Assembly (NCBI RefSeq): GCF_023897015.1
Contig: NZ_JAMHFY010000003.1
Location: 62,001 to 126,000, forward strand
Direction: 5' to 3'
Origin: Desulfosporosinus nitroreducens
Lineage (GTDB): Bacteria > Bacillota > Desulfitobacteriia > Desulfitobacteriales > Desulfitobacteriaceae
DNA length: 64,000 nucleotides
Position 1 is the stretch's first letter. The number at the start of each line of letters is the position of its first letter. Below the pieces are notes generated by a model that saw only the letters and a list, made by a program, of their open reading frames with translations, was not told the origin of the DNA and made no database searches. The position numbers were made by a program, and so were the translations under genes. This document shows positions 19,973 through 43,371 of this stretch, one piece after another.

Positions 19973-20015
19973 GGTACCCGTACTCTTCAACCTTAGTTGA
20001 ACGAGTTCACTGGGC

Positions 20016-20162: not shown

Positions 20163-20206
20163 ATATGATCAACAAACATTTAAATTAATTAAAGGAGGCT
20201 TTAGTG

Positions 20207-23502: not shown

Positions 23503-23557
23503 AATGAGTGCAAAAATAATTTCGTGATTAAACGTTTAAGTTATGGAGGTGCTTATG

Positions 23558-25528
23558 ATGTACACCCAATCCGTGAAATATGTAAAAGATCCGCTTTGGG
23601 CGTGGAAAAATTTTGTCGAGAGGGGTATCGCTGATGCAGTGCTTACACGTCCAGAGATCCTAGAATCTTGGCAGCGCTGTCGGAAACTTGGCGTAAATGC
23701 TTATGATGGCATAGGTAAAGATAGATTGGATCAAAAGGAATTACAACAACTTATCCTTTTTAACTCTCAATTAGTAGAGGTAGCCAAACCCTTCATGCAT
23801 ACCGTCTACCAAAGTGTTCAAGGTTCGGGATTCATGGTTGTGATTACAGACAAGGAAGGGAGGATTTTGCACACTTGCGGAGATTCAGGGATTCTGGATA
23901 AAGCTGCAAGTACAATTCGATTTATAAAGGGTACAAACTGGTCGGAACAGGCTGTGGGGACCAACGCGATCGGGACAGCATTGGCCATGAATAAAGCCAT
24001 TCAAATTTCTGGGTCCGAACACTTTTGCCAATCACATCATTACTGGACGTGTTCTGGAGCCCCGATTCACAACTCTCTCGGGGAAATTATCGGATGTTTT
24101 GATATCTCCGGCCCTGCCGAATATGTGTATTTACATACATATGGGATGGTTGTGGCGGCGGTAGAAGCCATAGAAAATCAATTGCGGAAGGAAGAAATTC
24201 AGGAGGAAAAGAACAGAGCATATGAATTATTGAGTGCTGCAACGGAGAGTGTGACTGAAGGCTTGCTGGCCGTGGACAAGGAAGGTCGGATTATTCATAT
24301 CAATCCTGTTGCTCAAAAAATACTCGGCTTGAGCAAAAAAATAGAGACAGGCCAACTTCTAAAATCGATCCTCGGCCCTAACGAGAAGTTCAGTGAAATG
24401 GCTAAGCAACTTCTCTGGAAAACGGATGTGGAAATTGTGCAAGATCAAGGACGGGACCGAATTCATTGTACTTGTTCAGCCCGTCCATTTTCTAAGAAGG
24501 ATGGCTCAATTGCCGGTGTGGTGTTTACCTTACGGGAAATTAATAAGGTTCGCCGTTTGGTAAACATGATGGTAGGAGCTACTGCTCGTTTTTATTGCAA
24601 GGATATTATCGGGGAATCTGGAGTGATGAAAAACGCCTTGAAATTAATTTCAGTCGCTGCAAATTCCAAATCCAATGTTCTTTTGACTGGAGAAAGCGGT
24701 ACGGGGAAGGAATTGTTTGCCCAAGCGATTCACAATCACAGCAGTCGCACGGAAGGTCCTTTTGTTGCAGTAAATTGTGCAGCCCTGCCACGAGAACTTA
24801 TTCAGAGTGAACTCTTTGGATATAATGAAGGGGCCTTTACTGGAGCAAAGCGAGGGGGAAATCCAGGAAAGTTTGAACTGGCCAATGAGGGGACCATCTT
24901 TCTGGATGAAATCGGTGATATGCCCATGGAATTGCAGGTAAACCTTTTGCGGGTTTTGCAGGAGCGGAAAGTAACGAGGGTTGGTGGAGAAAAGGTAATT
25001 CCTGTTAACGTGCGAATTATTGCAGCGACCAATAAGGATCTAAAGAGGGCCGTCGAAGAAGGGCGTTTCCGAGAAGATTTGTATTACCGCTTAAATGTAT
25101 TAAGCATACAAATCCCACCCTTAAGGGAGAGAGGGAAAGATATTGAACTCTTAACCATTCATTTAATAAACATTTTCTCGGAAAACTTGGGTAAAGAGAT
25201 CGATGGAGCTGAGCAGGAGTTTTTCGAGGCCATTCGTAATTATTCCTGGCCTGGGAATGTAAGAGAATTACAAAATGCGGTGGAATATGCCATGAATGTG
25301 GCTGAGGGGGAATATCTCAGCGTTACGGATTTACCCCGCAGCATACATCGGCAGCCGAACTATTTGCAAGAAATGGGGGAGGTCATCTCATTAACAGAAA
25401 TAGAGCGGATTACTGTTGAGTCAACATTAACCCGGTTTAATGGCAATATTACCAAAACGGCAAAAGCTTTAGGAATTGGACGCAATACGTTATATGATAA
25501 GTTGAGAAAGTTGGGGGTTAGAGCATAG
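23558..25528 (+). CDS. acoR: Sigma-54-dependent activator, AcoR type
   Basis: Enhancer-binding protein of about 656 residues. N-terminal GAF domain (about 55-185, with TNAIGTALAMNKAIQISG), a PAS domain (about 220-320), an AAA+ domain (about 350-580) with Walker A GESGTGKELFAQ, the GAFTGA sigma-54 contact loop (EGAFTGAKRG), Walker B GTIFLDEIGDMP, and a Fis-type HTH at the end (TKTAKALGIGRNTLYDKLRKLG). The start ATG 23558 is 6 bases after GGAGGTG; ATG 23543 overlaps that sequence. AcoR of Bacillus has the same layout and activates acetoin dehydrogenase genes with SigL. Its presence amid six sigma-54 promoters makes it the local regulator. Confidence 0.93.
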   Translation: MYTQSVKYVKDPLWAWKNFVERGIADAVLTRPEILESWQRCRKLGVNAYDGIGKDRLDQKELQQLILFNSQLVEVAKPFMHTVYQSVQGSGFMVVITDKEGRILHTCGDSGILDKAASTIRFIKGTNWSEQAVGTNAIGTALAMNKAIQISGSEHFCQSHHYWTCSGAPIHNSLGEIIGCFDISGPAEYVYLHTYGMVVAAVEAIENQLRKEEIQEEKNRAYELLSAATESVTEGLLAVDKEGRIIHINPVAQKILGLSKKIETGQLLKSILGPNEKFSEMAKQLLWKTDVEIVQDQGRDRIHCTCSARPFSKKDGSIAGVVFTLREINKVRRLVNMMVGATARFYCKDIIGESGVMKNALKLISVAANSKSNVLLTGESGTGKELFAQAIHNHSSRTEGPFVAVNCAALPRELIQSELFGYNEGAFTGAKRGGNPGKFELANEGTIFLDEIGDMPMELQVNLLRVLQERKVTRVGGEKVIPVNVRIIAATNKDLKRAVEEGRFREDLYYRLNVLSIQIPPLRERGKDIELLTIHLINIFSENLGKEIDGAEQEFFEAIRNYSWPGNVRELQNAVEYAMNVAEGEYLSVTDLPRSIHRQPNYLQEMGEVISLTEIERITVESTLTRFNGNITKTAKALGIGRNTLYDKLRKLGVRA

Positions 25529-29336: not shown

Positions 29337-29918
29337 ATGATGAAACTGAAGGGTAAATTAGACATTGAAACATTAGGAAAGAACTGGCTAATTGAAGTAG
29401 AAGCCCATCCAGAAGAAATGAATTCGATATTCTTTGTAGGGAAGAGTGTAAATCCCAGAGACATTAGGGTAACTAAAAATTTTAACGCATTGCCTTTGTT
29501 GCTTCCTTACTGCGCAAAAAGTCCAACTTGTAAGTTTCGATATACGGAAGGGTGTGAACGTTGTGGACGTTGCGATATGGGGGAAGCTTATCAATTAGCA
29601 GAGGAGTTTGGGATGGAGCCGGTTACGATACAGAACTATGAAATGCTTGAGCAGGTTTTACAGAGTTTGAAGGAACAAGGGTGCAGTGCTTTTATTGGAA
29701 CGTGTTGTCAGACCTTTTTAACTAAACACCGGCACGATTTTGAACGTATTGGCTTACAAGGTGTACTCATTGACATTGATAATTCGACCTGTTATCATCT
29801 GGGCAAAAATAGGGAAGCCCATCAGGGGACTTTTCAAAACCAGACTCGATTAAAACTTGATCTCCTTCGCAAAGTGTTAGATAAAGTAATAGTTTCAGAT
29901 GAAGTTGGTAGAAAATAA
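29337..29918 (+). CDS. DUF116 family protein, Cys-rich
   Basis: Protein of 193 residues that matches DUF116 in its core: a Cys cluster PYCAKSPTCKFR and GCERCGRCDMG (residues about 60-83), then LAEEFGMEPVTIQN and a third Cys stretch FIGTCCQTF. The Cys spacing suggests an Fe-S or zinc site, but the biochemical function of DUF116 is unknown. DUF116 genes often sit near lipoate and radical SAM genes, consistent with this locus. Either ATG 29337 or 29340 could be the start, with TAGGTAAT upstream. It ends before a terminator and the acoA control region. Confidence 0.75.
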   Translation: MMKLKGKLDIETLGKNWLIEVEAHPEEMNSIFFVGKSVNPRDIRVTKNFNALPLLLPYCAKSPTCKFRYTEGCERCGRCDMGEAYQLAEEFGMEPVTIQNYEMLEQVLQSLKEQGCSAFIGTCCQTFLTKHRHDFERIGLQGVLIDIDNSTCYHLGKNREAHQGTFQNQTRLKLDLLRKVLDKVIVSDEVGRK

Positions 29919-30170: not shown

Positions 30171-30194
30171 TGTTCGAAAACCGAACAGTGTTCG
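30171..30194. promoter_or_regulatory. AcoR-type activator site (UAS) upstream of acoA
   Basis: TGTTCG-AAAAC-CGAACA (30171-30187) followed by an additional GTGTTCG half-site (30188-30194). It lies about 140 bases upstream of the sigma-54 promoter at 30324, a normal enhancer distance. The core matches the palindrome at 20138-20162. Confidence 0.75.
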
Positions 30195-30323: not shown

Positions 30324-30341
30324 TTGGCATACATTTTGCAT
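30324..30341 (+). promoter_or_regulatory. Sigma-54 promoter of the aco operon
   Basis: TTTGGCATACATTTTGCA, with GG (30326-30327) and GC (30338-30339) separated by 10 bases. The acoA start is about 250 bases downstream; the leader between them is AT-rich and no aptamer was recognised in it. Confidence 0.88.
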
Positions 30342-30593: not shown

Positions 30594-31556
30594 GTGGCGC
30601 TTAGTAAAGAACAAATGCTTGATTTATATCGTCAAATGCGTATGATCCGTGAATTTGAAGAGACCGTGGCCAAATTTTTTTCACAAGGTCAAATTCCTGG
30701 TTTTGTTCACCTGTACATTGGTGAAGAGGCTGTGGCTACCGGAGTCTGTGCGAACTTAGAAAAACAGGACTATATCGCCAGTACTCATCGGGGGCATGGG
30801 CATGGGATTGCCCGTGGAGCATCGCTTAACAAAATGATGGCTGAGATTTTCGGTAGGGCCGACGGAGAATGTAAAGGAAAAGGCGGTTCCATGCATATTG
30901 CCGATGTAGAACTAGGTTTTCTTGGCGCGAATGGAATTGTGGGTGCAGGTTTACCTTTAGCAACCGGGGCAGGTTTTGCCGCTAAATATATGAAGACTAA
31001 TGGAGTTGCGATCTGCTTTTTTGGGGACGCATCATCGAACCGCGGTACATTCCATGAGTCATTGAACATGGCGAGTATTCAAAAATTGCCGGTAGTTTTC
31101 GTCAACGAGAATAATATGTACGGAATTTCGATGAGTCAGGAAAGGCATCAAAACATTACGGACATTGCAGACCGTGCAGGGTCCTACGGAATGCCTGGTA
31201 TGGTCGTTGACGGCAATGACGTTATGGCTGTCTACGAGGCAGCAGAAGAAGCTGTGAAACGTGCTCGTGCTGGCGGAGGACCCGTCTTAATTGAATGTAA
31301 AACTTATCGGCATCACGGCCATTTTGAAGGGGATCCCTGCGTATATCGGTGTGATGAAGAAGTGAACACCTGGAAAGCGAAAGATCCTTTGCCGCGGTTC
31401 GTGAACCGTTTGCAAGAAATGAAAATGGCTACAGAGGCAGAAATTAATCAAATCGATATTGAAGTTAAAAAGATAATTGCTGATGCGGTTGAGTTTGCTC
31501 AGAATAGTCCTGTACCATCTCTTGATGAACTCACGAGCGATGTTTACTGCGACTAA
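30594..31556 (+). CDS. acoA: Acetoin dehydrogenase E1 alpha subunit
   Basis: TPP-dependent E1 alpha of the acetoin dehydrogenase complex, 320 residues. The N-terminus MALSKEQMLDLYRQMRMIREF, quoted here to position 20 only, is the family start, followed by YIASTHRGHGHGIARGA, and the TPP/Mg motif is GDASSNRGTFHESLNMAS with ENN at about 145-175. GTG 30594 is preceded by GAGGAGTG. Together with AcoB it cleaves acetoin to acetaldehyde and an acetyl unit loaded onto lipoyl E2. First gene of the sigma-54-driven operon. Confidence 0.93.
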   Translation: MALSKEQMLDLYRQMRMIREFEETVAKFFSQGQIPGFVHLYIGEEAVATGVCANLEKQDYIASTHRGHGHGIARGASLNKMMAEIFGRADGECKGKGGSMHIADVELGFLGANGIVGAGLPLATGAGFAAKYMKTNGVAICFFGDASSNRGTFHESLNMASIQKLPVVFVNENNMYGISMSQERHQNITDIADRAGSYGMPGMVVDGNDVMAVYEAAEEAVKRARAGGGPVLIECKTYRHHGHFEGDPCVYRCDEEVNTWKAKDPLPRFVNRLQEMKMATEAEINQIDIEVKKIIADAVEFAQNSPVPSLDELTSDVYCD

Positions 31557-31580: not shown

Positions 31581-32552
31581 ATGGCAGAAAAGACGTATTC
31601 CCAAGCGATTAATGAGGCCCTCGAAGAAGAAATGCGTAGGGATGAGAAAGTTTATATATTAGGAGAAGATGTTGGAGCCTTCGGTGGGTGTTTTGGAGTA
31701 ACAACAGGGCTTCTTGAAAAATTCGGTGCTGAAAGAGTGTTGGATGCTCCGATCTCTGAGACTGCGATCATGGGTTCAGCTGTAGGGGCTGCAGTCGCTG
31801 GTTTACGCCCAGTTCCAGAAATTATGTTTGTAGACTTCGTAGGTGTCTGTCTAGATGAGTTGCTTAACCAAGCGGCAAAGATGCACTATATGTTTGGTGG
31901 AAAGGCAAAGGTACCGCTGACGTTAAGGATGGCCGGCGGGGCCGGAGTGGGTGCAGCGGCCCAACACTCACAAAGCCTGGAAGCATTTATGTGCCATATT
32001 CCAGGGATTAAAGTAGTTATGCCTGCGACTGCAGCAGATGCCAAAGGTTTGTTGAAATCGGCCATCCGTGATGATAATCCGGTCGTATTCTTAGAGCATA
32101 AAGCCCTTTATGGGGCAAGTGGGGAAGTCCCGGAAGGGGAGTATACTATTCCACTTGGCAAGGCGGATATCAAACGGGAAGGAAAAGATGTCACGATCTT
32201 AGCCTATTCTATGATGCTTCATAAAGCGTTAGCGGCTGCGGAAACCTTAGCTCTAGAGGGAATCGAAGCAGAAGTGATAGATCCTCGTACGCTTGTGCCG
32301 TTTGATAAGGAAACGTTGTATAAATCAATAGAAAAAACCGGACGACTGGTTATCGTGCATGAAGCTGTCAAACAGGGAGGATTTGGAGGGGAAATCGCAG
32401 CAATGGTTGCTGAAGAATGTTTTGATTCTCTCGATGCATCAATTAAAAGGGTAGCGGCACCCTTTACCCCTATTCCTTTTGCATCGAACCTGGAAGCGGC
32501 CTATATACCGGATGAGGCTAAAATTATAGAAGCGGTGAAATCCTTTTTCTAG
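31581..32552 (+). CDS. acoB: Acetoin dehydrogenase E1 beta subunit
   Basis: Transketolase-like E1 beta, 323 residues: YSQAINEALEEEMRRDEKV start, GEDVGAFGGCFGVTTGL, DAPISETAIMGSAVGAA, and the C-terminal domain with EAVKQGGFGGEIAA. Length and block order are standard for AcoB/PdhB. ATG 31581 follows AAGGGGTGAG. It completes the TPP active site with AcoA, which starts 24 bases upstream of it. Confidence 0.94.
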   Translation: MAEKTYSQAINEALEEEMRRDEKVYILGEDVGAFGGCFGVTTGLLEKFGAERVLDAPISETAIMGSAVGAAVAGLRPVPEIMFVDFVGVCLDELLNQAAKMHYMFGGKAKVPLTLRMAGGAGVGAAAQHSQSLEAFMCHIPGIKVVMPATAADAKGLLKSAIRDDNPVVFLEHKALYGASGEVPEGEYTIPLGKADIKREGKDVTILAYSMMLHKALAAAETLALEGIEAEVIDPRTLVPFDKETLYKSIEKTGRLVIVHEAVKQGGFGGEIAAMVAEECFDSLDASIKRVAAPFTPIPFASNLEAAYIPDEAKIIEAVKSFF

Positions 32553-32632: not shown

Positions 32633-33658
32633 ATGATTGCAGGAATTATTGCCAATCCCGCTTCAGGAAAAGATATCCGCCGTTTGGTGGCTCACGCCAC
32701 GGTCTTTGATAATCAGGAGAAAGTGAATTTGATCCGGAGAATCTTGCTCGGGCTTCAAGCGGCAGGGGTTCAAAGGGTCTGGTTTATGCCAGATTATTTT
32801 GGCTTCTACGAGCGGGCTTTAGATGTTTTCAGCGGTGAGAATCAATTAACCATGGAGACAAAGCTCTTACCCATGCAGTGGAAGGCGAATCAAGAGGATT
32901 CGCAGTTGGCAGCAGCCAAAATGGTAGAAATGGGTGTTAGTTGCTTGGTAACCCTAGGTGGTGACGGAACGAACCGAGTTGTATCTAAAGGAGCCGGGGA
33001 GGTTCCTATTATGCCTGTTTCTACAGGAACTAATAATGTTTTCTCAGTTATGGTGGAAGGAACCATAGCGGGATTGGCAGCTGGTTTAGTTGCGACAGGT
33101 GCGGTAGAACAAGAGTATTCTCTTATTCAGACCAAAAAGCTGATTATCTATATGAACGGTAAAGCGGTGGATATAGCCTTAATAGATGCTGTTGTGCTAG
33201 CTGAGCAGTTCGTCGGTTCCCGGGCCATTTGGGACATTGGTAAGATCCGGCAGATTGTGGCTACGTGCGGCGAGTCCTTTCATATTGGTATCGCGGCAAT
33301 TGTCGGTGCCCTGCATCCCATCAATAAGAGAGAAGCCAAGGGGATCAACTTAATAGTCTCAGAAAGTGGCGAGCAAACGCGGGATTCTACTCAAGGCTCC
33401 TCAATCCAGGTAAAAGCAGCAGTAGGACCTGGTCTGATTCGATCGGTTCCTGTCCGCTCATACGAGTTAATAAGCCCCGGTCAGAAAGTAGTTGTACGTC
33501 ATGTCCCTTGTGTTATAGCGGTTGATGGAGAAAGGGAGATTTTTGTCGGTCCAGAAGACTGTGCCGAAGTAGAACTAGTGCAGACAGGGCCGTTTGTGGT
33601 CGATGTCAAAAGCACCTTAAACCGTGCTGCGAAAAAAGGTTTATTCATAAATCGTTAA
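32633..33658 (+). CDS. acoX: AcoX-like ATP-NAD kinase family protein
   Basis: Protein of 341 residues with the NAD kinase/diacylglycerol kinase-like signature CLVTLGGDGTNRVVSKG (about residues 100-118) and an N-terminal IANPASGKDIR. AcoX genes recur in acetoin operons of Gram-negatives and some Firmicutes, but the role of AcoX in the complex is not established. ATG 32633 follows GGAGGAGA. It lies between the E1 and E2 genes in the same orientation. Confidence 0.88.
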   Translation: MIAGIIANPASGKDIRRLVAHATVFDNQEKVNLIRRILLGLQAAGVQRVWFMPDYFGFYERALDVFSGENQLTMETKLLPMQWKANQEDSQLAAAKMVEMGVSCLVTLGGDGTNRVVSKGAGEVPIMPVSTGTNNVFSVMVEGTIAGLAAGLVATGAVEQEYSLIQTKKLIIYMNGKAVDIALIDAVVLAEQFVGSRAIWDIGKIRQIVATCGESFHIGIAAIVGALHPINKREAKGINLIVSESGEQTRDSTQGSSIQVKAAVGPGLIRSVPVRSYELISPGQKVVVRHVPCVIAVDGEREIFVGPEDCAEVELVQTGPFVVDVKSTLNRAAKKGLFINR

Positions 33659-33709
33659 ATCTGCTAAAAAGCAGAGCAAACAAGTTTGAAATTAGGAGGT
33701 AAAAGAAAA

Positions 33710-35302
33710 ATGGCACAAATTATGCTTATGCCCAAATTAGGTTTAACAATGAAAAAAGGAAAAATAGTAAGCTGGCTAAAAAACGAAGGGGAGGCGGTTG
33801 CCCTAGGAGAAGCTCTCTTAGAGGTGATGACGGAAAAAGTAAATATTAAAGTTGAATCACCTTATAATGGAGTACTTTATAAGATTATCGGTGCTCCAGG
33901 CTCGAACTATCCGATCTCAGTTCCGCTTGCTGTTTTGGCGGAAGAAGGGGATGGTGCCGCTGCATTAGAAGCCGCTCTCGATGAGGCGAAAAGTGTTTTA
34001 CAGGCGGCACTAGCAGGTGGGAGTGACGACGCAGAGAAGAAGAAAGAAGCAAAACCTGTTAAGCCGTTTGGGGTTTTTGCTGGTACTGGTAAGGTATCCC
34101 CTCGTGCGGCTAAACTCGCCGATAAAGAAGGCGTTGCGCTTGGATTAATTAATGGCAGTGGTCCAAATGGCAAGGTTGTTGAAGAAGATGTTTTAAATTA
34201 CATCGCTCAGGTCAAGGGAGAGACAACTTCCGAACTGCGTCCCATTGATCCTCAGAGCATGCGGGGCGTCATAGCGGATCGAATGATTAAGAGTCGGAGA
34301 GAGGCTGCCCATGTCACCCTCATGAAAGAAGTGGATATGACCTCATTGAAAGATGTTCGGGAGCAATTAAATGCGTTGGGTGCTGACAAACGAGTAAAAT
34401 TCTCCTTTACAGATTTCCTTGTTAAGTTTACGGGACAGGCTTTAGCGGAATTCCCGCTTGTGAACTCGCGGAGCACTGATAAGGAAATTGAATTAGCCAA
34501 ATCGATCAATGTTGGGGTAGCTGTCGCCTTGGAAGAGGGGCTCGTCGTTCCCAATGTGAAAAATGTTCCGATTCTTACGCTTGAACAAATTTCGGCTAAA
34601 ATTAAAGACTTGGCAGCGCGAGCTCGCAATTCTGAACTTGACCCGTCAGAGATAGAACAAGGGACGTTTACGATTACTAATTTGGGGGCTTACGGAGTGG
34701 AGGGCTTTACACCCATTATTAATCGGCCGGAAACCGCCATTCTCGGTGTTGGAACGATAAGACAGAAACCAATCATGGTTGATAGTCGCTTAGAAAATCG
34801 TTCTTTTATGACGCTCAGCCTTTCTCTGGATCATCGGATCATCGACGGTTCACTCGCTGCAGACTTTTTAGGCCGTCTTATAGAGATGTTGGAAAATCCC
34901 TATCCTTGGTTCCAGTTACAGCCACAAGGCAATGACGATCTTCTCATCAAGACCGGAGGCATAGAAACACCTCACGATCTATTGGAGGCGTTTTCCGGTG
35001 GGTTGGCAGAGCTGAAAGAAGATGCCCCAGAATTGGCAATTGGTTTTGAAAGCCTCATGGCACCGGTTTTTTGCGAAGGTGAATTGGGGATCATGGAAAA
35101 AGAATTAATGGCGGTGGCCGTCGCCATTTATGGCAAATGTGAGTACTGTATTGCTGCTCATGTTTATAATGCCATGAATGCTGGAGCATCTGGTGATCAA
35201 GTAATGGAGGCTGCTGGAGTCGCTGTTGCTTTTGGAGGCGGTCCAGCAATGGCTTATACCGTAACAAAAGTTCGTGAATGCGTCAAAGCTTTTGGCGGTT
35301 AA
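33710..35302 (+). CDS. acoC: Acetoin dehydrogenase E2 fused to an AhpD-like CxxC domain
   Basis: Protein of about 530 residues, longer than typical E2. Parts in order: lipoyl domain (1-78, lipoyl lysine K43 in VMTEKVNIKVESP), Ala/Lys linker, E1-binding domain (about 127-164, KVSPRAAKLADKEGV), acyltransferase domain (about 185-400 with catalytic DHRIIDG at 374-380), and an extra C-terminal domain (about 415-530). The extra domain carries E465-x11-C477-x2-C480-x3-H484 (KCEYCIAAH), the AhpD active-site pattern. In mycobacteria AhpD is a separate protein that takes electrons from the lipoyl arm of an E2. The start ATG 33710 is 10 bases after AGGAGG; an upstream frame from 33686 has none. No E3 gene follows. 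Confidence 0.93.
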   Translation: MAQIMLMPKLGLTMKKGKIVSWLKNEGEAVALGEALLEVMTEKVNIKVESPYNGVLYKIIGAPGSNYPISVPLAVLAEEGDGAAALEAALDEAKSVLQAALAGGSDDAEKKKEAKPVKPFGVFAGTGKVSPRAAKLADKEGVALGLINGSGPNGKVVEEDVLNYIAQVKGETTSELRPIDPQSMRGVIADRMIKSRREAAHVTLMKEVDMTSLKDVREQLNALGADKRVKFSFTDFLVKFTGQALAEFPLVNSRSTDKEIELAKSINVGVAVALEEGLVVPNVKNVPILTLEQISAKIKDLAARARNSELDPSEIEQGTFTITNLGAYGVEGFTPIINRPETAILGVGTIRQKPIMVDSRLENRSFMTLSLSLDHRIIDGSLAADFLGRLIEMLENPYPWFQLQPQGNDDLLIKTGGIETPHDLLEAFSGGLAELKEDAPELAIGFESLMAPVFCEGELGIMEKELMAVAVAIYGKCEYCIAAHVYNAMNAGASGDQVMEAAGVAVAFGGGPAMAYTVTKVRECVKAFGG

Positions 35303-35320: not shown

Positions 35321-36862
35321 ATGGTTGGATCTTTTCACCCCACGTATCTTCTTGACCTCGGGAAAGCGGACTATAAACCGGTTTGGGAACTTCAGAAGAA
35401 TTTACAAAATCTCAGGATTAGAGGTCAGGTCGCGGATAGCTTTATCTTGGTCGAACACCCTCCCACAATCACGTTGGGAAAACTCAGCAGCAGTGAGCAT
35501 ATCTTGGTTGGTGAAGAATGGCTCGCTGCTCATGAATTCCAGGTTTTTCAGATTGAAAGGGGAGGAGATGTTACTTACCACGGTCCGGGCCAACTTGTAG
35601 GCTATCCCATCCTAGATCTCCGCGAATACAATAAGGACGTCCATTTGTTGGTTTATAAATTAGAAGAAATGCTAATACGAACGCTTTCTGCCTTTGGAAT
35701 TAAAGCGGAGCGACGTGTTGGATTTCCCGGAGTCTGGGTTGGTGAGAAGAAAATTGCCAGCATTGGTTTAGGGGTAAATCATTGGGTGACAATTCACGGT
35801 TTTGCTCTTAACGTTAACCCGGATTTGTCTCAGTTTAATACCATTGTCCCTTGCGGCTTGTCTAGTGTGCAAATGACTTCGCTTGCAGAAGAACTGAAAC
35901 GCTCGATTAGTATTTCCGAGGTCAAAAATAGGGTCATTGAAGAAATGTGTGCACTTTTTCAATGGGAAATTCGCTCTCTATCCCAGGATGTGGAGAGCTT
36001 GTTGCTTGCTGACGGTCTGAAAGCACAAGTTTTTCGACCAAGTTGGTTAACGGTTCAGGCTCCTACAGCGGGTGTGATGGAAGTAATGGAAGGAGTTTTG
36101 GCGAAGGGTCGCTTGCATACGGTCTGTGAGGGAGCATGTTGTCCCAACGCGGGTGAATGCTTTGCTTTAGGCACCGCCTCGTTTATGATTCTTGGCGACG
36201 TCTGCACCAGGAGATGCCGTTTCTGCGCAGTAAGCAAAGGGATCCCCTGTCCTCCCGATCCGGCAGAAGCGGAAGCGGTGGCGGAAACCGTCAAAACCCT
36301 TAACCTTAAACATGCTGTCATCACATCAGTGACACGGGATGATTTACCAGACGGCGGAGCAGGGGAATTTGCGCGAGTTGTGAGAGCCTTGCGACAAAAG
36401 ACTCCCCTAACAAGTATTGAATTATTGATTCCGGATTTAGCTGGATCAGAACAAGCGCTGGAAACTGTTCTTGCCGTTAAGCCAGAGGTCCTCGGTCACA
36501 ATATCGAGACGGTACCCGAGCTTTATCCTCGCGTGCAGCCGGGGGCAAATTATGAGCGTTCGTTGAAGGTTCTGGCCGATGTTAAGAGACTTGATCCTAC
36601 GATCAAAACTAAAAGTGGTTTGATGGTTGGTCTTGGAGAGAAAACACAGGAAGTTTGTCGTGTTATGGAGGACTTGCGCGCGGTAGGGTGTGATTACCTT
36701 ACTATCGGTCAATACCTGCAACCCACGCCTAAACATTTACCGGTAGAAGGGTTCATACCTCCAAGTATGTTTGCCTGGTATCGGGAGCAGGCCCTCAAAC
36801 GTGGCTTTGAAAAAGTGGAATGTGGCCCCTTAGTCCGCAGTTCCTATCATGCGCAACCATAA
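35321..36862 (+). CDS. LipB-LipA fusion: octanoyltransferase plus lipoyl synthase
   Basis: One 513-residue open frame joining two enzymes normally encoded separately. Residues 1-225 are LipB: ERGGDVTYHGPGQLVGYP (79-96), EKKIASIGLGV with K144, and catalytic C178 in VPCGLSSVQ. Residues 235-513 are LipA: C269/C274/C280 (C-x4-C-x5-C), the radical SAM C295/C299/C302 (CTRRCRFC), and the C-terminal RSSYHA. LipB moves octanoate from ACP to a carrier and LipA inserts two sulfurs. Fusion would make a single lipoylation enzyme for AcoC and the GcvH-like carriers. ATG 35321 follows AAGCGGGGATAACCG. It starts 18 bases after acoC. Confidence 0.93.
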   Translation: MVGSFHPTYLLDLGKADYKPVWELQKNLQNLRIRGQVADSFILVEHPPTITLGKLSSSEHILVGEEWLAAHEFQVFQIERGGDVTYHGPGQLVGYPILDLREYNKDVHLLVYKLEEMLIRTLSAFGIKAERRVGFPGVWVGEKKIASIGLGVNHWVTIHGFALNVNPDLSQFNTIVPCGLSSVQMTSLAEELKRSISISEVKNRVIEEMCALFQWEIRSLSQDVESLLLADGLKAQVFRPSWLTVQAPTAGVMEVMEGVLAKGRLHTVCEGACCPNAGECFALGTASFMILGDVCTRRCRFCAVSKGIPCPPDPAEAEAVAETVKTLNLKHAVITSVTRDDLPDGGAGEFARVVRALRQKTPLTSIELLIPDLAGSEQALETVLAVKPEVLGHNIETVPELYPRVQPGANYERSLKVLADVKRLDPTIKTKSGLMVGLGEKTQEVCRVMEDLRAVGCDYLTIGQYLQPTPKHLPVEGFIPPSMFAWYREQALKRGFEKVECGPLVRSSYHAQP

Positions 36863-36876
36863 CGGAGGTGGAAAGT

Positions 36877-37311
36877 ATGGCAATTATTGAAGGATACAAT
36901 TTACCCGATGACCTCTACTATACTGAAGACCATGCCTGGGTGAAAGTAGAAGGAAATTTAGTCAGAGTAGGAATGAATGATTTTGCCCAGAAATTGGCGG
37001 GAGATATCTCGTTTGTTAAACTACCCAAAGTCGGTAAAGATGTACCAATAGGTAAACTTCTCAGCTCTATGCAATCAGGAAAGTGGGCGGGACGTATCGA
37101 GGTACCAGTAACAGGTAAGATCGTGGAGGTCAATAAAGAGTTATTGCATGAACCACAAAAGATGAATCAGGACTGTTACGGAAATGGTTGGATCGCGCTG
37201 ATTGAGCCTAGCAATTTCCAGGAGGATTTAGTTAAACTCATGGATGGGGCGAAGGCCGCAGAGTGGCTTAAGGGAGAAATTGCCCGGAATGTTCCGGGTA
37301 AGGAGGGGTAG
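36877..37311 (+). CDS. GcvH-like lipoyl carrier protein 1
   Basis: Protein of 144 residues with the H-protein fold: YYTEDHAWVKVEGNLVRVG start and a hairpin presenting K69 in MQSGKWAGRIEVP, the expected lipoylation site. The surrounding GKW(A/V)GR motif differs from the ESVKAA site of canonical glycine-cleavage GcvH and resembles the lipoate-binding protein (LbpA) type. No gcvT or gcvP genes are present. ATG 36877 is chosen because CGGAGGTGG lies just upstream; a longer frame from 36820 overlaps lipBA. It sits 2 bases before the GlcD-like flavoprotein gene. Confidence 0.88.
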   Translation: MAIIEGYNLPDDLYYTEDHAWVKVEGNLVRVGMNDFAQKLAGDISFVKLPKVGKDVPIGKLLSSMQSGKWAGRIEVPVTGKIVEVNKELLHEPQKMNQDCYGNGWIALIEPSNFQEDLVKLMDGAKAAEWLKGEIARNVPGKEG

Positions 37312-37313: not shown

Positions 37314-38822
37314 ATGGAGCAAGCTTTGCGCGAAATATGTGGGTCAAGGGTCACAACCGACCCGTTTGAACTTGCCCCATATGCTAAAGATGTCGCCTAT
37401 GTCCCCGCTATTCTGGTCCATTTACTCACAAATCCCCTCCCTAAAGCCGTGGTTCAGCCCATCTCGGCAGAAGAAATCTCTAGTTTGATTAAGTGGGCCA
37501 AGCAAGGCAAAATACCAGTCACAGTCCGGGGCGGAGGCTCTACCGCCTATTTCAATTGCATTCCGATGAAGAGTGGTTTAGTGATTGATACGAATCGCCT
37601 CCAAGGATTTTCGGAAATCGAGCTAGACCAGGGGAACCAGAAAAAAATGGTCTGGGTCAAAGCAGGGATGACTTGGAAAGACCTCGATGACGGATTGCGA
37701 CAGCAGGGCTGTGCTGTGTGCTCTAGCCCAAGCAGTGCACCCTCCGCTACGATCGGAGGATGGGTTTCCATGGGAGGCTTAGGTATCGGCTCTGTTCCCT
37801 ATGGCTCAGTTCACGATCAAATTATGGCCATACGGGGTGTGACGGCCACAGGAGAAATCGTGGAATTATCACGACCTGACAAAAGCCCTGCAAGGAACCA
37901 GGGATCTGAGCAATCAGACTTACAATTTAATGACTTGATGGGTACTGAAGGAACCCGGGGAATTATTACGGAGATTAAGTTGTTGGTTCGTGACGTTCCA
38001 GAAAAAGAGGAACATCTACTAGCCATCTTTAATAATGCAACGGATACTGGTGTGATGATGTCTTGGCTGGGTGGAGAACATTTTATGTCTCTGTACAATG
38101 TTCATTTTAGTAGTCCAGAATTCATGATGTCGCTCCAGAAAGCTGGCTACGCTCATGAAATCCCTCCAGGAAAGTATAGCCTGGAAATTGATCTAGAGGG
38201 CAAGCGTGACGAAGTGGATCAAGCGGTTGCTCACATCAGAAAACAAGTGAAAGTTCTAGGCGGGACTTTATTGCCTGATGGAGTAGGAGCTGAGGAATGG
38301 GCCGATCGGTTTAAATCTCTCCGGCTTGAACAAACACTTCCTTCCCTCCTAGCGGCAGAAATGACACTCCCGGTCCGTAATTTTGCGGCCTTTTATGAGA
38401 GGTTAAGTAAATTGGGCCAAAAGACCAATACCCTGTGCGTTACGTATGCCCATCTCGTGTCTCCTGACATGGCCTTGGTGATGGTTCTTTATCCTTCAGA
38501 TGAACTGAACCTGATCCGTTACATCGTCGATCTGAGTTTTACCAGCAACCTTTACAAGTTGGGACACCGCTTAGGTGGTAAACCTTATGTCATTGGCTTT
38601 TGGAATACTCCCTATTTAGGAAAAATATATGACAAGGGAGAAAGAGAACGCCGCCGCCAGCGCAAACAAGCGGCAGATCCATACGCTATGCTCAATCCCG
38701 GAAAGGGCTACAATCCCCCGAATATTATTTTGAACAGCTATGTCTTTGGTTTTGCGATGATTATGATTGGTCTCTTTCGACCTATGGTCCTTAAAATCCT
38801 CAAAGGAGGCAAAGGACAATGA
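37314..38822 (+). CDS. FAD-linked oxidase, GlcD-like, with C-terminal hydrophobic tail
   Basis: Protein of 502 residues of the FAD_binding_4 (GlcD/VAO) family: VTVRGGGSTAYFN (about 72-84) and the pyrophosphate-loop block SSPSSAPSATIGGWVSMGG (142-160) are visible. Its C-terminus has about 26 hydrophobic residues (LNSYVFGFAMIMIGLFRPMV region) that may anchor it to the membrane, preceded by a positively charged segment. GlcD-like flavoproteins oxidise 2-hydroxyacids and pass electrons to GlcF-like Fe-S partners; the next gene is exactly such a partner and overlaps by 4 bases. Substrate not determined; the context favours dihydrolipoyl carriers. Confidence 0.86.
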   Translation: MEQALREICGSRVTTDPFELAPYAKDVAYVPAILVHLLTNPLPKAVVQPISAEEISSLIKWAKQGKIPVTVRGGGSTAYFNCIPMKSGLVIDTNRLQGFSEIELDQGNQKKMVWVKAGMTWKDLDDGLRQQGCAVCSSPSSAPSATIGGWVSMGGLGIGSVPYGSVHDQIMAIRGVTATGEIVELSRPDKSPARNQGSEQSDLQFNDLMGTEGTRGIITEIKLLVRDVPEKEEHLLAIFNNATDTGVMMSWLGGEHFMSLYNVHFSSPEFMMSLQKAGYAHEIPPGKYSLEIDLEGKRDEVDQAVAHIRKQVKVLGGTLLPDGVGAEEWADRFKSLRLEQTLPSLLAAEMTLPVRNFAAFYERLSKLGQKTNTLCVTYAHLVSPDMALVMVLYPSDELNLIRYIVDLSFTSNLYKLGHRLGGKPYVIGFWNTPYLGKIYDKGERERRRQRKQAADPYAMLNPGKGYNPPNIILNSYVFGFAMIMIGLFRPMVLKILKGGKGQ

Positions 38823-39988
38823 AAACGATTGAAGAACTTCGGGAGCAAATAGCCAAAACCAGTTATATTTGTGGCAGCTGCGGCAGTTGTCGTAGCGTCT
38901 GTCCCGTTTACCGAGAAATTGGTTGGGAATCCTCGGCACCTCGCAGGAAAATTGCTTTGGCCAAAGAGGTATTCCTGAAGAAAAAGGAGAAACAAGCCAC
39001 GGGTCAATACGCTCAGCGTTTGCAGGAGTGTACGTTGTGTGGTAAATGTGCGGAAATATGTGCAGCTGGGATTAAAACACGTGAGCTTTGGTTGAATCTG
39101 CGAGAAGATTTAAGGGCTCGGGGGATGGAACATCAGAACTTAACACAAATGGCTCTGCAAGTTAAAACGACCCACAATATCAGTACGTTCCCAAATGAAA
39201 ATCGCCTTGACTGGGTGGACGATTTAGATGAGGTTGAAGTAGAGGTATCCAAAGCCGGAAGTGAGGTCGCCTACTTTGTAGGATGTGTGTCTTCCTTCTA
39301 TCCGATGTCGGCCGGAATCTCTCAAAGTATTGTCAGCTTATTGGACCGAGCAAATGTTAATTATACCGTTCTAGGAAGTGAGGAATGGTGTTGTGGCTTC
39401 CCCCTCCTCGCTTCGGGAAACTCCCAACAAGTCCTTGAATTAGCCAAACACAATGTGGAAAAGGTACGCGCTCTGGGTGTCAAAACCTTAATAACGGGCT
39501 GTGCCTCCTGTTATCATACCTGGACACATGAATATCCGACGATTCTCGGGGAAGATCTTGGCTTTGAGGTGCTCCATGCTACACAGTATCTGGCTGGATT
39601 AATCCGTACAAAACAATTAGAGGCTGGCAATATAGATGAGACCGTCACTTATCATGACCCCTGCGATTTGGGTCGTAACAGTGGAATCTATGACGAGCCC
39701 CGAGAACTTTTACAGGCCATGGAGGGGGTAAACTTTGTAGAAATGCCTCATCGCCGAGAGATGGCCGACTGTTGCGGTGGGGGAGGGAATCTAGCCGCCG
39801 TAGATAAGGAGTTAAGCCAAGCGATTGCTGTGAAACGGGTACGTGAGGCTGTGGCAACTGGGGCAACTATTTTAACCTCTGCGTGCCAGCAATGTGTACA
39901 GACTTTGCAAATGGCGGCAAGACAGGAAAAATTACCACTTGAGGTCTTAGATGTTACAGAGTTATTATGGCGATCCTTGGAAGAATAG
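38819..39988 (+). CDS. Fe-S oxidoreductase with two CCG domains, GlcF/HdrD-like
   Basis: Protein of 389 residues: two 4Fe-4S ferredoxin sites (CGSCGSCRSVCP at 18-29, CTLCGKCAEICAAG around 71-84), then two CCG domains (SEEWCCGFPL with CASC, and ADCCGGGGN with CQQC). The paired CCG domains are those of GlcF and HdrD/HdrB; in heterodisulfide reductases the CCG cluster does disulfide/dithiol chemistry. Here it is flanked on both sides by lipoyl-carrier genes, so a dihydrolipoyl-oxidising role is plausible. ATG 38819 overlaps the flavoprotein stop (ATGA). Confidence 0.88.
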   Translation: MKTIEELREQIAKTSYICGSCGSCRSVCPVYREIGWESSAPRRKIALAKEVFLKKKEKQATGQYAQRLQECTLCGKCAEICAAGIKTRELWLNLREDLRARGMEHQNLTQMALQVKTTHNISTFPNENRLDWVDDLDEVEVEVSKAGSEVAYFVGCVSSFYPMSAGISQSIVSLLDRANVNYTVLGSEEWCCGFPLLASGNSQQVLELAKHNVEKVRALGVKTLITGCASCYHTWTHEYPTILGEDLGFEVLHATQYLAGLIRTKQLEAGNIDETVTYHDPCDLGRNSGIYDEPRELLQAMEGVNFVEMPHRREMADCCGGGGNLAAVDKELSQAIAVKRVREAVATGATILTSACQQCVQTLQMAARQEKLPLEVLDVTELLWRSLEE

Positions 39989-40058
39989 TGTATTCACCTT
40001 CCTGAAATAGAATAGGATCTTAAGTTTTTTGCACGATTATGATAAAGAGGGTGAGAAT

Positions 40059-40484
40059 GTGAAGGTCGGAGAGTGGCATTTCCCAGAGGAATTACTCTAT
40101 GATGAACACCATCAGTGGCTCAAAAGGGAAGGGAAAACTATCATCATTGGCTTAACCGATTACGGGCAATACACCAGGGGGGATATATTATACTTGAGTT
40201 TGCCAGAAGCCGGTACTCGGGTGAAGGCAGGAGAGGCCGTAGGTTCTCTGGAAACGGGAAAATGGGTCGGGCGTTTTTATGCTCCCCAGACAGGGGAAAT
40301 CTGTGCCGTGAACACGGAGGTTTTGAAAAACACACGCTTGATTAATCAAGATCCCTATGTCCACGGATGGCTCTTTAAAATAAAAATTCATTCCGCTGAA
40401 GGGCAAATGCTTATGACTGTAGAGGAACTCAAGGTGTGGTTAGAGCTGGAGTTAGAAAGGGAGAAGGCCTGTTGTGATGTCTAA
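40059..40484 (+). CDS. GcvH-like lipoyl carrier protein 2
   Basis: About 141-residue H-protein-fold carrier with lysine K68 in SLETGKWVGRFYAP. It keeps the GKWVG motif of carrier 1 but is otherwise divergent, with a C-terminal helical extension ending in ...EREKACCDV. GTG 40059 is preferred over the TTG at 40029 because GAGGGTGAG lies just ahead of it. It follows the CCG protein gene and overlaps the first radical SAM gene by 8 bases, so carrier and maturation proteins are translationally coupled. Confidence 0.82.
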   Translation: MKVGEWHFPEELLYDEHHQWLKREGKTIIIGLTDYGQYTRGDILYLSLPEAGTRVKAGEAVGSLETGKWVGRFYAPQTGEICAVNTEVLKNTRLINQDPYVHGWLFKIKIHSAEGQMLMTVEELKVWLELELEREKACCDV

Positions 40485-41583
40485 CACTCACGTTGATTGT
40501 TCCCAAGGTGAACTTAACCACGAGATCGAGGATATGGGCTTAGAAAGTCCGGAGGTTATCCAAACCAGTCTTGCGGCCGCGATGACACTCGGTTTAAAGG
40601 GCGGTATTTTCTATCGCAATGCCAAGCTCACCTGCTTAAACTTGCTCTTGACTTATCAAGAGGGCTGCCAGGGGCGCTGCGGTTATTGTGGTTTGGAACA
40701 AAAACGTTCAGAAAAAACCAAAGGGACAACGTTCATCCGAGTTGCTTGGCCTACCTACTCTTTTGATCTCATTCTCGAACGGACGAAACAATATCAAAAC
40801 TCTTTAAAACGAATTTGCCTATCTATGATTACCCATAAGAGAGCCTTTGAGGATTCGTTAAATCTTGTATCCCGTTTACACAGTGAAGTCAATTTGCCGA
40901 TTAGTATTCTCTGTGCCCCGACGCTGATTCACAAGATGGAAGACTTGCAAAAATTAAAAGAGGCTGGTGCCGATCAACTTGGGGTATCGATTGATACAGC
41001 TACCTCAGAAATCTTTCAAAAATACCGAGGAAAAGGTGTACGGGGACCTCATCAATGGGATCATTACTGGGAGATTTTAAGAAAGGGTATTGATGTTTTT
41101 GGAAAAGGTAAGGTCAGTGTTCATCTTATTGTCGGCCTTGGAGAAAGCGAACAAGAGATGGCCATGGCTTTTCAGCAAGTCCACGATTTAGGCGCGGTGG
41201 TTCATCTGTTTTCGTTCTATCCCGAACCGGGGAGTGCTCTGGCTGAGAAAAAGGCACCTTCCATTGGTCAATACCGCCGTATGCAAATAGCTCGTTATGT
41301 AATTATGAATGATTTAGCGAATGCTAAAACAATGCGTTTTAATAGTTCTGAACAAGTTTGTGATTTTGGGCTGGACGTAGAACCTTTTGTCGCTTCCGGC
41401 CAACCTTTTCGTACGTCCGGCTGTCCAGGGCATGATGGAGAAACTGCCTGTAATCGGCCCTATGGCAATGAACGTCCAGGTACTACCCTGGCCAATTATC
41501 CTTTTATTCCTAATATACGAGATGTGGAGCAAATAAGGGATGAACTCTACGCTGGGCTCATGGAGGGTGTTGAACAATCGTGA
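40477..41583 (+). CDS. Radical SAM protein, LipS1/LipS2-type lipoyl synthase component
   Basis: Protein of about 368 residues, biotin-synthase-related radical SAM (COG2516-like). The cluster motif is C65-x3-C69-x2-C72 (numbered from GTG 40474; GCQGRCGYC), followed by a TIM-barrel and C-terminal region with RTSGCPGHDGETACNRPYG, which could hold further clusters. Two such proteins together are lipoyl synthase in Thermococcus and in sulfur-oxidiser lipoate clusters. Start ATG 40477 (GTG 40474 possible) with GGGAGAAGG upstream. The partner is the next gene. Which of LipS1 and LipS2 this is, I cannot say. Confidence 0.75.
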   Translation: MSNTHVDCSQGELNHEIEDMGLESPEVIQTSLAAAMTLGLKGGIFYRNAKLTCLNLLLTYQEGCQGRCGYCGLEQKRSEKTKGTTFIRVAWPTYSFDLILERTKQYQNSLKRICLSMITHKRAFEDSLNLVSRLHSEVNLPISILCAPTLIHKMEDLQKLKEAGADQLGVSIDTATSEIFQKYRGKGVRGPHQWDHYWEILRKGIDVFGKGKVSVHLIVGLGESEQEMAMAFQQVHDLGAVVHLFSFYPEPGSALAEKKAPSIGQYRRMQIARYVIMNDLANAKTMRFNSSEQVCDFGLDVEPFVASGQPFRTSGCPGHDGETACNRPYGNERPGTTLANYPFIPNIRDVEQIRDELYAGLMEGVEQS

Positions 41584-41679
41584 ATTCTAGGGATGACCTG
41601 TCGAAACTGGCAATCTCTACTAGGGATCTAATAAAGTTAAAATGCTCCGAACTTCGCGAAAAGAAAGAATGAAGAAAAG

Positions 41680-42657
41680 ATGATAGAGAAGACTATTAAC
41701 GAAGGTTGGACGGAATTTGATCAGAGCTCAAACTTACCTAATCTACTAAAAGAAGCTTGGAATCTGCGCCGAAAAGCCTTCCCTGATTTTATCCGCTTTG
41801 CAGTTCCCGGCGGGAGGCACTATGATGGTAAGAATTTTTGCAATTCAGGTCAATTCCTCAATGTGAGTATCACGGGAATGTCTTGTGCTCTTCTATGTGA
41901 CCATTGTCAGGGGAAAATGCTGAAGGGAATGATTCCAGCCCCAACACCAGAAATACTACAGGAATTGGGAACTAAACTGCGGGAAAAAGGTGTTACAGGG
42001 CTTCTTATAACCGGAGGATGTAATCATGAGGGGCAGGTCCCCCTTAAGCCCTTTTTATCGGTTATTACTTATCTAAAATCCCTGAACTTTACAATTCATG
42101 TTCATACGGGCTTAGCAGATAAGGAAACAGCAGTGGGGTTGAAACGGGCGGGAGTTGACAAGGTTTTTTTGGATATGATGGGTGATGCAGCTACAATTCG
42201 CAGGGTTTATCATCTTGACCGCAACCCTAGTGCCTATATAAATGCTTTAGAAATTCTGCTGGCCGAGAATTTAGATGTCGTCCCGCATGTGGTTCTCGGC
42301 TTAAACTACGGGAAAATCATGGGAGAAGAAAATCTCATTCAAACGTTAAGTGACTATCCTTTGGAAACGTTGGTGTTAGTTGCTTTACGAGCCGTGCCGG
42401 GTACTCCGATGGGCGGAGCCAGTGGACCAGATCCGGCTGAGATCGTCAGGATCACCGCTCAAACTCGTCTCTTGAATCCTTCGCTAAAACTAAGTTTTGG
42501 TTGTGCTCGACCCTATACTCAAAAGGCTTGGTTGGAGAGGGGGCTCATAGCGGCGGGTATCAATACCTTGGCTTTTCCACTGGATGAGACTATAGACTTC
42601 GCTTTAGCGTGTGGGCTGGAACCGATTATGAATGAGATGTGCTGTGGTGGACTATAG
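41680..42657 (+). CDS. Radical SAM protein, second LipS1/LipS2-type component
   Basis: Protein of 325 residues, COG1856-like homologue of biotin synthase. The cluster motif is C69-x3-C73-x2-C76 (SCALLCDHCQGKM). HxHTGL, PHVVLGL and the C-terminal CGLEPIMNEMCCGGL with three further Cys point to additional Fe-S binding. It pairs with the preceding gene, as in two-protein lipoyl synthases. Transcribed with it, 96 bases apart. ATG 41680 follows AAAGAAAGAATGAAGAAAAG, a weak site. Confidence 0.75.
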   Translation: MIEKTINEGWTEFDQSSNLPNLLKEAWNLRRKAFPDFIRFAVPGGRHYDGKNFCNSGQFLNVSITGMSCALLCDHCQGKMLKGMIPAPTPEILQELGTKLREKGVTGLLITGGCNHEGQVPLKPFLSVITYLKSLNFTIHVHTGLADKETAVGLKRAGVDKVFLDMMGDAATIRRVYHLDRNPSAYINALEILLAENLDVVPHVVLGLNYGKIMGEENLIQTLSDYPLETLVLVALRAVPGTPMGGASGPDPAEIVRITAQTRLLNPSLKLSFGCARPYTQKAWLERGLIAAGINTLAFPLDETIDFALACGLEPIMNEMCCGGL

Positions 42658-42696: not shown

Positions 42697-43371
42697 ATGC
42701 CAATTGAACTTTTTGATCCGATAGCTGATGATTATGACAACTGGTACGAAACAGACATAGGACGAGTAATCGATCAAGTAGAGCGGGACTTAGCTGGTCA
42801 GCTCTTTCAGCCATCCGGTTCTAAGATGTTAGAAATTGGGTGTGGGACCGGACAATATACCACTAAGCTGGCGGAACAGGGGTATCATATCACGGCTGTC
42901 GATATCTCTGAAAAAATGATGGCCCAAGCTCGAGAAAAGATTGCGAACTCAGGATATCAGGTTAAGTGGCTCAATGCGGATATTACTCAAATTATGGATC
43001 AACTTGAACAATATCATGGTATTCTTTCGATGAGTGCTTTTGAGTTTATTCCAAATCCGGAGGAAATTTTAGCTAGGTTATTTGAGCATCTAGAGCCCAA
43101 AGGATGTCTGGTGATTGGAGTTATTGCGGGAGAATCTCCTTGGAGCGAGTTCTATAGTAGGAAAGCTAATACAAAACCTAAATCCGTTTTTGCCCACGCA
43201 CGGTTTTACACGGAATTCGAAATTTGTCAATGGAAGATAGGTGGAAGGCTTGAACTTGGTAAAGCACTTTATTTTCCGCATGAGGTGTCTTCGGTAGAAC
43301 AAGCTTTAAGAATGGAAAAACAAAAAAATACGAATCCTAGTTTTATGGTTGCTAAGTGGGTAAAAGAATGA
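42697..43371 (+). CDS. Class I SAM-dependent methyltransferase
   Basis: Protein of 224 residues with Rossmann-fold motif I MLEIGCGTGQYTTKLA (about 45-60) and ITAVDISEKMMAQAREK. It resembles UbiE/small-molecule methyltransferases; the substrate is unknown. ATG 42697 follows TTAGGAGCTAA. It is the last gene before a terminator, 39 bases after the second radical SAM gene, so it may be part of the same transcript. Confidence 0.85.
   Translation: MPIELFDPIADDYDNWYETDIGRVIDQVERDLAGQLFQPSGSKMLEIGCGTGQYTTKLAEQGYHITAVDISEKMMAQAREKIANSGYQVKWLNADITQIMDQLEQYHGILSMSAFEFIPNPEEILARLFEHLEPKGCLVIGVIAGESPWSEFYSRKANTKPKSVFAHARFYTEFEICQWKIGGRLELGKALYFPHEVSSVEQALRMEKQKNTNPSFMVAKWVKE

Follow-up and report, generated by a model that had tools for sequence, protein, structure and literature searches.

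The stretch of DNA analysed here, 64,000 nucleotides of a Desulfosporosinus nitroreducens contig (NZ_JAMHFY010000003.1, positions 62,001 to 126,000; hereafter the window), carries on its forward strand a gene for a LipS2-like radical SAM protein of 369 amino acids with a GTG start (40474-41583), followed by an adjoining gene for a LipS1-like radical SAM protein of 325 amino acids with an ATG start (41680-42657). Together, these two proteins very probably make up a lipoyl synthase of the LbpA-associated LipS1/S2 clade, as judged from their sequences and gene context. The pair is encoded downstream of acetoin dehydrogenase genes, two genes for GcvH-like lipoyl carriers and genes for a GlcD/GlcF-type oxidoreductase, and it is the possible working of this set as one system that is considered below.

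A sequence-only reading of the window had proposed an adjacent LipS1/LipS2-like radical SAM pair. Both open reading frames are present, and their products are matched over the full length by the NCBIfam models for LipS2 (NF053743; 240.5 bits, E 2.6e-71, cut-off 270) and LipS1 (NF053742; 210.3 bits, E 3.8e-62, cut-off 230), and Pfam recognises only Radical_SAM in both. Two points weigh against the assignment: both proteins score below the NCBIfam cut-offs and, to our knowledge, no member of exactly the window-type clade has been assayed. Scores below the cut-off are the norm for this clade, as nearly all window-type LipS2 proteins fall under it; the clade spans 200-272 bits, and canonical copies score 282-412 bits. 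BioB, PylB and MSMEG_0568 were ruled out by score as the family of the pair; the matches listed by a plasmid tblastn were MSMEG_0568-type radical SAM proteins with 41% of the query covered, and a search of solved structures with either protein gave no match.

The assignment is supported by the cluster ligands. Mutagenesis of the two radical SAM proteins LipS1 and LipS2 of Thermococcus kodakarensis (TK2109/TK2248) identified C27/C31/C34, H159, C230, C276 and C277 of LipS1 and C39/C43/C46, C85, H178, C276 and C279 of LipS2 as ligands (PMC9585515). As mapped by spacing and family alignment, all of them are conserved in the window pair. The LipS2-like protein displays a radical SAM (RS) motif C65-x3-C69-x2-C72 and the auxiliary-cluster ligands C115, H217, C317 and C326, all invariant across 39 diverse relatives. 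The LipS1-like protein has the RS cysteines C69/C73/C76 (Cx3Cx2C) and H203, C275, C321 and C322 as auxiliary ligands; the RS cysteines, H203 and C275 are kept in 91 of 91 relatives and C321/C322 in 90 of 91. Spacing in LipS1 is 127 residues from RS to His (125 in T. kodakarensis), 72 from His to Cys (71) and 46 from Cys to the Cys pair (46), and LipS2 is spaced much like its T. kodakarensis counterpart except for the last Cys pair, which is 9 residues apart instead of 3. The window LipS2 thus differs from that enzyme by its C-x8-C in place of C-x2-C, and the pair by its scores below the NCBIfam cut-offs and its other partners, in a comparison made by ligands and not by a direct tree.

The LipS2-like protein was filed, on its sequence, as a sister clade of curated LipS2. 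In a tree covering the window clade and the canonical LipS2 of the same bacterial family, the two are divided by a fully supported branch, and the auxiliary motif separates them as well, being C-x7-10-C in the window type wherever readable, bar one row counted as x2, and C-x2-C in canonical copies. Full-length LipS2 matches in 398 Bacillota genomes fall into two groups, at 244 bits or below and at 282 bits or above, a gap which argues that the split is real within this phylum. Scanning GTDB genomes with the window-type LipS2 as query returned 102 relatives, the best 80 of which belong to Desulfosporosinus, Sporomusa, Syntrophaceae, Smithella, Desulfomonile, Alicyclobacillus, Sulfobacillus, Hydrothermarchaeota, Bathyarchaeota and others. 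In bacteria and archaea alike, clade members are often found beside LplA1 and LipT and beside GcvH-like or LbpA carriers, and one locus (L109) is an sHdr cluster encoding HdrB, HdrA, HdrC, HdrB, two LbpA, LipS1, LplA1 and LipS2. With a pair from an sHdr/LbpA cluster in its clade and every T. kodakarensis ligand kept, the proposed membership in the LipS1/LipS2 family stands. It could be argued that the pair has come to perform a different sulfur insertion, giving for example a lipoate variant or a thiolated carrier and not lipoate, since it forms a distinct clade with C-x7-10-C instead of CxxC and shares ~30% identity with the canonical pair. Yet the ligands are all retained, and the partners (LplA, LipT and lipoyl-domain carriers) are those of characterised sulfur-oxidiser clusters, making such a drift improbable. 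Additional, diverged LipS2-like proteins scoring 66-92 bits are encoded next to CMD and GcvH-like carrier genes in two other loci (L252:9290-10336 and L168:6375-7394); the one in L168 has no Pfam Radical_SAM match, and its locus also encodes a molybdopterin oxidoreductase and a pyridine-nucleotide-disulfide oxidoreductase.

Two GcvH-like lipoyl carriers are encoded on the same strand, GcvHa (36820-37311; PF01597, 121.4 bits; lipoyl-Lys motif QSGKWAG) and GcvHb (40029-40484; PF01597, 117.8 bits; lipoyl-Lys motif ETGKWVG), and the 3' end of the GcvHb gene overlaps the start of the LipS2 gene. In alignments, both combine the GcvH fold with the LbpA-like (E/Q)(S/T)GKW motif. The LbpA proteins of sHdr systems are marked by a conserved N-terminal and a conserved C-terminal Cys (Cao et al., PMC6067878). 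GcvHa lacks both, and GcvHb lacks the N-terminal one and has a C-terminal Cys found only in Desulfosporosinus, which favours electron transfer over sulfane-sulfur carriage. If the carriers were true LbpA proteins after all, the module would oxidise sulfane sulfur as in sHdr and its linkage to acetoin genes would be incidental. The LipS clade shared with the sHdr locus L109, the LbpA-like motif and the resemblance of the GlcF CCG sites to HdrB would fit, but we give this little credence, as the marker cysteines of sHdr LbpA are missing, the neighbours are acetoin genes and the annotated part of the operon holds no sHdr set.

The pair is likely dedicated to GcvH-like carriers, as far as gene neighbourhoods can tell, and we think that GcvHb is its main client and GcvHa a possible one. 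This is suggested by the overlap of GcvHb with lipS2, by distant neighbourhoods and by the joint absence of GcvHb and the pair. GcvHb adjoins LplA2, LplA1 or LipS in distant relatives, with LplA2 as the neighbour in several, including a LipS1-LplA2-GcvHb-LipS2 set in Hydrothermarchaeota, and of 50 well-flanked clade loci, 30 encode a GcvH-like protein no more than 6 kb away. The GlcDF loci without GcvHb, found in G230 (L164) and in G039, an incomplete metagenome-assembled genome of 83% completeness, lack the LipS pair too. Against such dedication, many clade members have no carrier nearby.

Upstream of the carriers, the window operon encodes E1 alpha, E1 beta and E2 of an acetoin dehydrogenase, all on the forward strand. 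They comprise an AcoA-like E1 alpha (30594-31556; TIGR03182, 393.7 bits), an AcoB-like E1 beta (31581-32552; NF006667, 406.6 bits), an NAD-kinase-like protein (32633-33658; PF01513), which we take to be AcoX from its position, and an E2 with lipoyl, E3-binding and catalytic domains fused to an AhpD/CMD domain (33686-35302; PF00364, PF02817, PF00198 and PF02627). The C-terminal AhpD/CMD domain carries a CxxCxxxH motif that is kept in 18 of 18 CMD matches examined, and in Sporomusa and others CMD is a separate gene. Relay of electrons from lipoyl-E2 by AhpD is known in Mycobacterium. Between a LipB-LipA gene and lipS2, the order is GcvHa-GlcD-GlcF-GcvHb, a redox module that the sequence-only reading had not considered. 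GlcD is a FAD oxidoreductase (37314-38822, +; FAD_binding_4/FAD-oxidase_C) and GlcF a GlcF/HdrD-like iron-sulfur protein (38819-39988, +; PF02754 in two stretches, with Fer4 matches). The latter has two [4Fe-4S] ferredoxin motifs and two CCG (non-cubane cluster) motifs, as in HdrD, and the motif cysteines are invariant in eight relatives.

Within 7 kb of the window E2, no E3 gene (acoL/Lpd) was found. Across loci, a CxxxxC-type Lpd within 7 kb of E2 was seen in 0 of 16 loci with GlcF near E2 and in 23 of 40 E2 loci without GlcF (Fisher 4e-5, or ~0.002 counted by genus). Two genomes display the contrast directly: the operon of G038 reads AcoR-AcoA-AcoB-E2-Lpd-LipB-LipA, and G015 has one operon of each type, Lpd-bearing and GlcDF-bearing. 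The operon of G429, acoABX-E2-CMD-GcvH-HdrC-HdrB-HdrA-LplA1-LipT-LipS2-LipS1, has Hdr genes in this slot and is without Lpd. Moreover, in the sample of 398 Bacillota genomes, window-type LipS2 occurs in 13 of the 15 with this GlcF and in 10 of the 383 others. From this exclusion, these contrasts and this co-occurrence, replacement of E3 by a lipoyl carrier together with a CCG enzyme is the likeliest reading, held with about even confidence.

Several observations stand against such a replacement. The loci are phylogenetically related, so that the p-values overstate their independence, and 17 E2 loci have neither Lpd nor GlcF nearby, some of them due to contig ends. A standalone Lpd with a GGTCLNRGC motif is encoded on contig C55, and the window E2 retains its E3-binding domain; hence an E3 encoded elsewhere may act in trans. 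The E3-binding domain of an E2 can bind E1 as well. A different role for GlcDF would follow if it were an ordinary 2-hydroxyacid dehydrogenase that reduces the lipoyl carriers and so provides dithiols for some reduction, with acetoin dehydrogenase using E3 in trans. GlcD and GlcF do resemble glycolate/lactate oxidases, Lpd is encoded elsewhere in the genome, and a GlcD-GlcF-GcvH module occurs without E2 in four loci (L169, L170, L173 and L174). However, GlcDF and Lpd were never together in the acetoin loci examined and HdrABC can fill the same slot, and we regard this role as unlikely, although it deserves more weight than the sulfane-sulfur scenario. In the same four loci, GcvH-like carrier and GlcDF genes lie without a 2-oxoacid dehydrogenase E2 nearby, and the GlcDF module would therefore not be only an E3 substitute. 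In three further loci (L242, L247 and L248, from G429, G056 and G278), HdrABC-type genes occur alongside LplA1-LipT-LipS and the gene for a GcvH-like carrier. Their gene content, with the G429 set directly behind acoABX-E2-CMD, suggests lipoyl-linked electron bifurcation.

The sequence-only reading had described the pair as a second lipoate route. An additional route is indeed predicted, but its rank has to be corrected from second to third, since the genome (95 contigs, 99.99% complete, 4.6% contamination) encodes three lipoyl synthases. Besides the pair, the window encodes a LipB-LipA fusion of an octanoyltransferase and a classical lipoyl synthase (35321-36862, +; TIGR00214 189.9 bits and TIGR00510 352.3 bits, both above cut-off), and a canonical LipS1-LipS2-LipM cluster with a LipS2 of 409 bits and a LipM-like transferase is located on another contig (C13:9064-11761; L037). 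Genes for a zinc alcohol dehydrogenase and a further sigma-54 activator adjoin the latter cluster, which in relatives is part of the gcv operon. As for the carriers, the only E2 of the genome is the one in the window, and there are three GcvH-family proteins, namely GcvHa, GcvHb and a GcvH on contig C55 beside GcvT and GcvPA.

Among the 45 genomes of the family, LipA occurs in 10, nine of which also have E2; the tenth (G042) has LipA without E2 and is 76% complete. Window-type LipS2 occurs in seven of the 45, each time with both GcvHa and GcvHb, and G038 and G039 encode E2 and LipA but no window-type LipS2. In 17 of 24 genomes, canonical LipS2 and GcvH are no more than ~5 kb apart, and the three loci that were opened show canonical LipS2 inside the gcv operon, together with LipM. 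Neighbourhood and co-occurrence thus support an assignment of the three synthases to three carrier classes, in which LipM-LipS1/S2 would serve GcvH, LipB-LipA would serve E2, and the GcvH-like carriers would be left to the window pair. In this form, the earlier suggestion of different carriers for different lipoyl systems is retained as a prediction from co-occurrence and operon membership. There are exceptions, as G023 has GcvH without canonical LipS2 and several family genomes have GcvH with no synthase detected by these searches.

Alternatively, the pair could be a redundant synthase that modifies E2, GcvH and GcvHa/b alike, its place in the aco operon only boosting lipoylation capacity on acetoin. 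Three lipoyl synthases in one genome and the exception of G023 would agree with redundancy, and so would G429, where the pair is inside the acetoin operon without LipA nearby and might serve E2 too. Yet each synthase lies beside its own carrier, and the couples LipA/E2, canonical LipS2/GcvH and window-type LipS/GcvH-like carrier occur in separate combinations. The lipoyl-Lys contexts differ as well (ETGKWVG/QSGKWAG, ESVKAVSD and TEKVN), and published LbpA was not modified by the Escherichia coli or Bacillus subtilis machinery (PMC6067878). Redundancy is therefore rather unlikely, and assignment of the pair to the GcvH-like carriers remains our preferred reading.

The ligases and flavoprotein that had been named as partners of the pair are present some 20 kb upstream. 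LplA1 is a lipoate-protein ligase with an LplB-like C-terminal part and an RKIxGTGG motif (20204-21265, +; NF053751 161.9 bits, NF053749 47.9 bits), the adjacent GGR-family flavoprotein is a LipT candidate that adjoins LplA1/LipS in most relatives (21241-22350, +; TIGR02032, 202.7 bits), and LplA2 is a second LplA-family protein without the LplB part (22387-23433, -; PF21948, 111 bits). These had been read as completing an alternative pathway, which agrees with relatives in which the genes are clustered: ligases, LipT-like protein, GcvH-like carriers, LipS2/LipS1, LipB and LipA form one cluster in Desulfosporosinus sp. FKB (L059) and two Sporomusa species (L079 and L087), and ligase, LipT, LipS1 and LipS2 are together in many more. 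In the window, LplA1-LipT, LplA2 and the aco operon are transcription units of their own that have sigma-54 sites in common. A Cys-rich DUF116-like protein is also encoded (29337-29918, +; PF01976, 52 bits) and may bind a metal or an Fe-S cluster, judging from its conserved cysteines. DUF116 is a separate gene in the window, and in 62 of 83 clade loci (e.g., L109, L169 and L246) LplA1 carries a divergent DUF116 domain as a fusion. This domain is possibly an unrecognised component of the lipoylation pathway; no mention of DUF116 was found in the literature covered on the sLpl(AB)-LipS1/S2 pathway. As a general marker of the system DUF116 was ruled out, since the Pfam family occurs in 189 of the 398 genomes of the phylum and only the LplA1-fused branch is linked. 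The last gene of the run encodes a class I methyltransferase (42697-43371, +; PF13649). This gene immediately follows LipS1 in Desulfosporosinus loci; in G039, which lacks the LipS pair, it comes after GlcF.

From acoA (30594) to 43371, all listed genes are on the forward strand and tightly packed, the largest gaps being ~100 bp. An AcoR-like sigma-54 activator with sigma-54 activation domain, PAS and Fis HTH is encoded at 23543-25528 (+). Exact -24/-12 promoter sites precede acoA (TGGCATACATTTTGCA; 30325-30340, +), LplA1-LipT (20017-20032, +) and LplA2 (23485-23500, -), as well as a DUF6506 gene, an acetoin reductase gene and the membrane-protein gene at 26895. These six sites, all within 19.7-30.4 kb, compare with 0.38 expected in the 64 kb, and a chance origin is thereby ruled out. 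A perfect 20-nucleotide inverted repeat (19771-19790 and 20015-20034) makes up two identical divergent -24/-12 promoters, one towards the DUF6506 gene and the other towards LplA1-LipT. Upstream of the aco promoter lies a palindrome that is a putative activator site (TGTTCGAAAACCGAACA; 30171-30187, +), and an identical palindrome is located near LplA1 (TGTTCGAAACCCGAACA; 20142-20158, +); these are the only exact copies of TGTTCG-N5-CGAACA in the window. The copy at 20142 lies on the downstream side of the -24/-12 site at 20017, an uncommon arrangement for an activator site and a point against this reading. With common promoters, the palindrome, the gene row and the AcoR-like gene taken together, the claim that the pair belongs to the same regulon as LipB-LipA is well supported as a prediction. 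Apart from this system, the alpha subunit of an NAD-linked formate dehydrogenase (14799-17477) is split by an in-frame TGA (CARTUHAPT) and is for this reason probably a selenoprotein.

From family membership, ligands, gene context, co-occurrence and common promoter motifs, we infer enzyme activities, substrate choice, the direction of electron flow and the final acceptor as follows. LplA1, possibly with LplA2 and DUF116, would put octanoate or lipoate on the lipoyl Lys of the GcvH-like carriers, chiefly that of GcvHb. The C8 sulfur would then be inserted by LipS2 and the C6 sulfur by LipS1, with the LipT-like flavoprotein perhaps as electron source. The acetoin E2 would be matured by LipB-LipA, and GcvH by the canonical LipS1/S2-LipM set of contig C13. 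After acetyl transfer, the dihydrolipoyl group on E2 may pass its electrons to the AhpD-type dithiol of E2 and on to the lipoyl carriers, which would be oxidised at the HdrD-like CCG site of GlcF, the electrons leaving via FAD on GlcD. Carriers and GlcDF would thus stand in for dihydrolipoamide dehydrogenase (E3), and HdrABC would do so in a relative. We consider a dedicated LipS pair, three carrier lines and GlcDF in place of E3 the best overall explanation and moderately likely to be right. The more general proposal, of an acetoin dehydrogenase without its own E3 whose electrons go from the E2 AhpD-type dithiol via lipoyl carriers to GlcDF or HdrABC, with its own synthase and three parallel lipoylation lines per cell, is tentative and has slightly less than even chances.

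Parts of this system resemble published ones. The sLpl(AB)-LipS1/S2 pathway, its coexistence with LipA, the idea of cognate substrates for each and the Sporomusa linkage have been described (PMC10332631). As in the sLpl(AB)-LipS1/S2-LipT pathway for LbpA of sulfur oxidisers (PMC6067878, PMC10332631), ligase, LipT, LipS1, LipS2 and GcvH-like carriers are clustered. The window system differs in that its carriers lack the two LbpA cysteines, its target would be GlcDF in an acetoin operon and not sHdr, and DUF116 is associated with the ligase. The reported linkage of Sporomusa lipS1/S2 to canonical lipoate genes matches L079 and L087, which hold the same cluster with LipB and LipA, yet acetoin is absent from the main text of that paper and no carrier is assigned there (PMC10332631). 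Likewise, AcoA, AcoB, E2, an AcoR-like activator and -24/-12 promoters are shared with the sigma-54/AcoR-controlled acoABCL operon (PMC6615313), whereas the window has no acoL (E3) beside E2 but GcvHa-GlcD-GlcF-GcvHb, and its E2 is fused to an AhpD-type domain. We found no description of three carrier-split lipoyl synthases in one genome, of acetoin operons in which GlcDF is linked to GcvH-like carriers that lack the LbpA cysteines, or of the E3 exclusion. The literature on a GlcD/HdrD-lipoate link and on acetoin in these genera, with most subscription journals not covered, held nothing describing the module.

LbpA-type carriers are known from sulfur oxidation, and here the same maturation line seems to serve GcvH-like carriers of an acetoin operon. 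If this is true, lipoate would be a protein-bound electron shuttle to heterodisulfide-reductase-type enzymes, which would explain how E2 functions without a local E3 in some anaerobes. The genome would also provide a natural three-way test of carrier choice by lipoyl synthases, and, with HdrA coupled to the system in relatives, one may ask whether energy is conserved by electron bifurcation.

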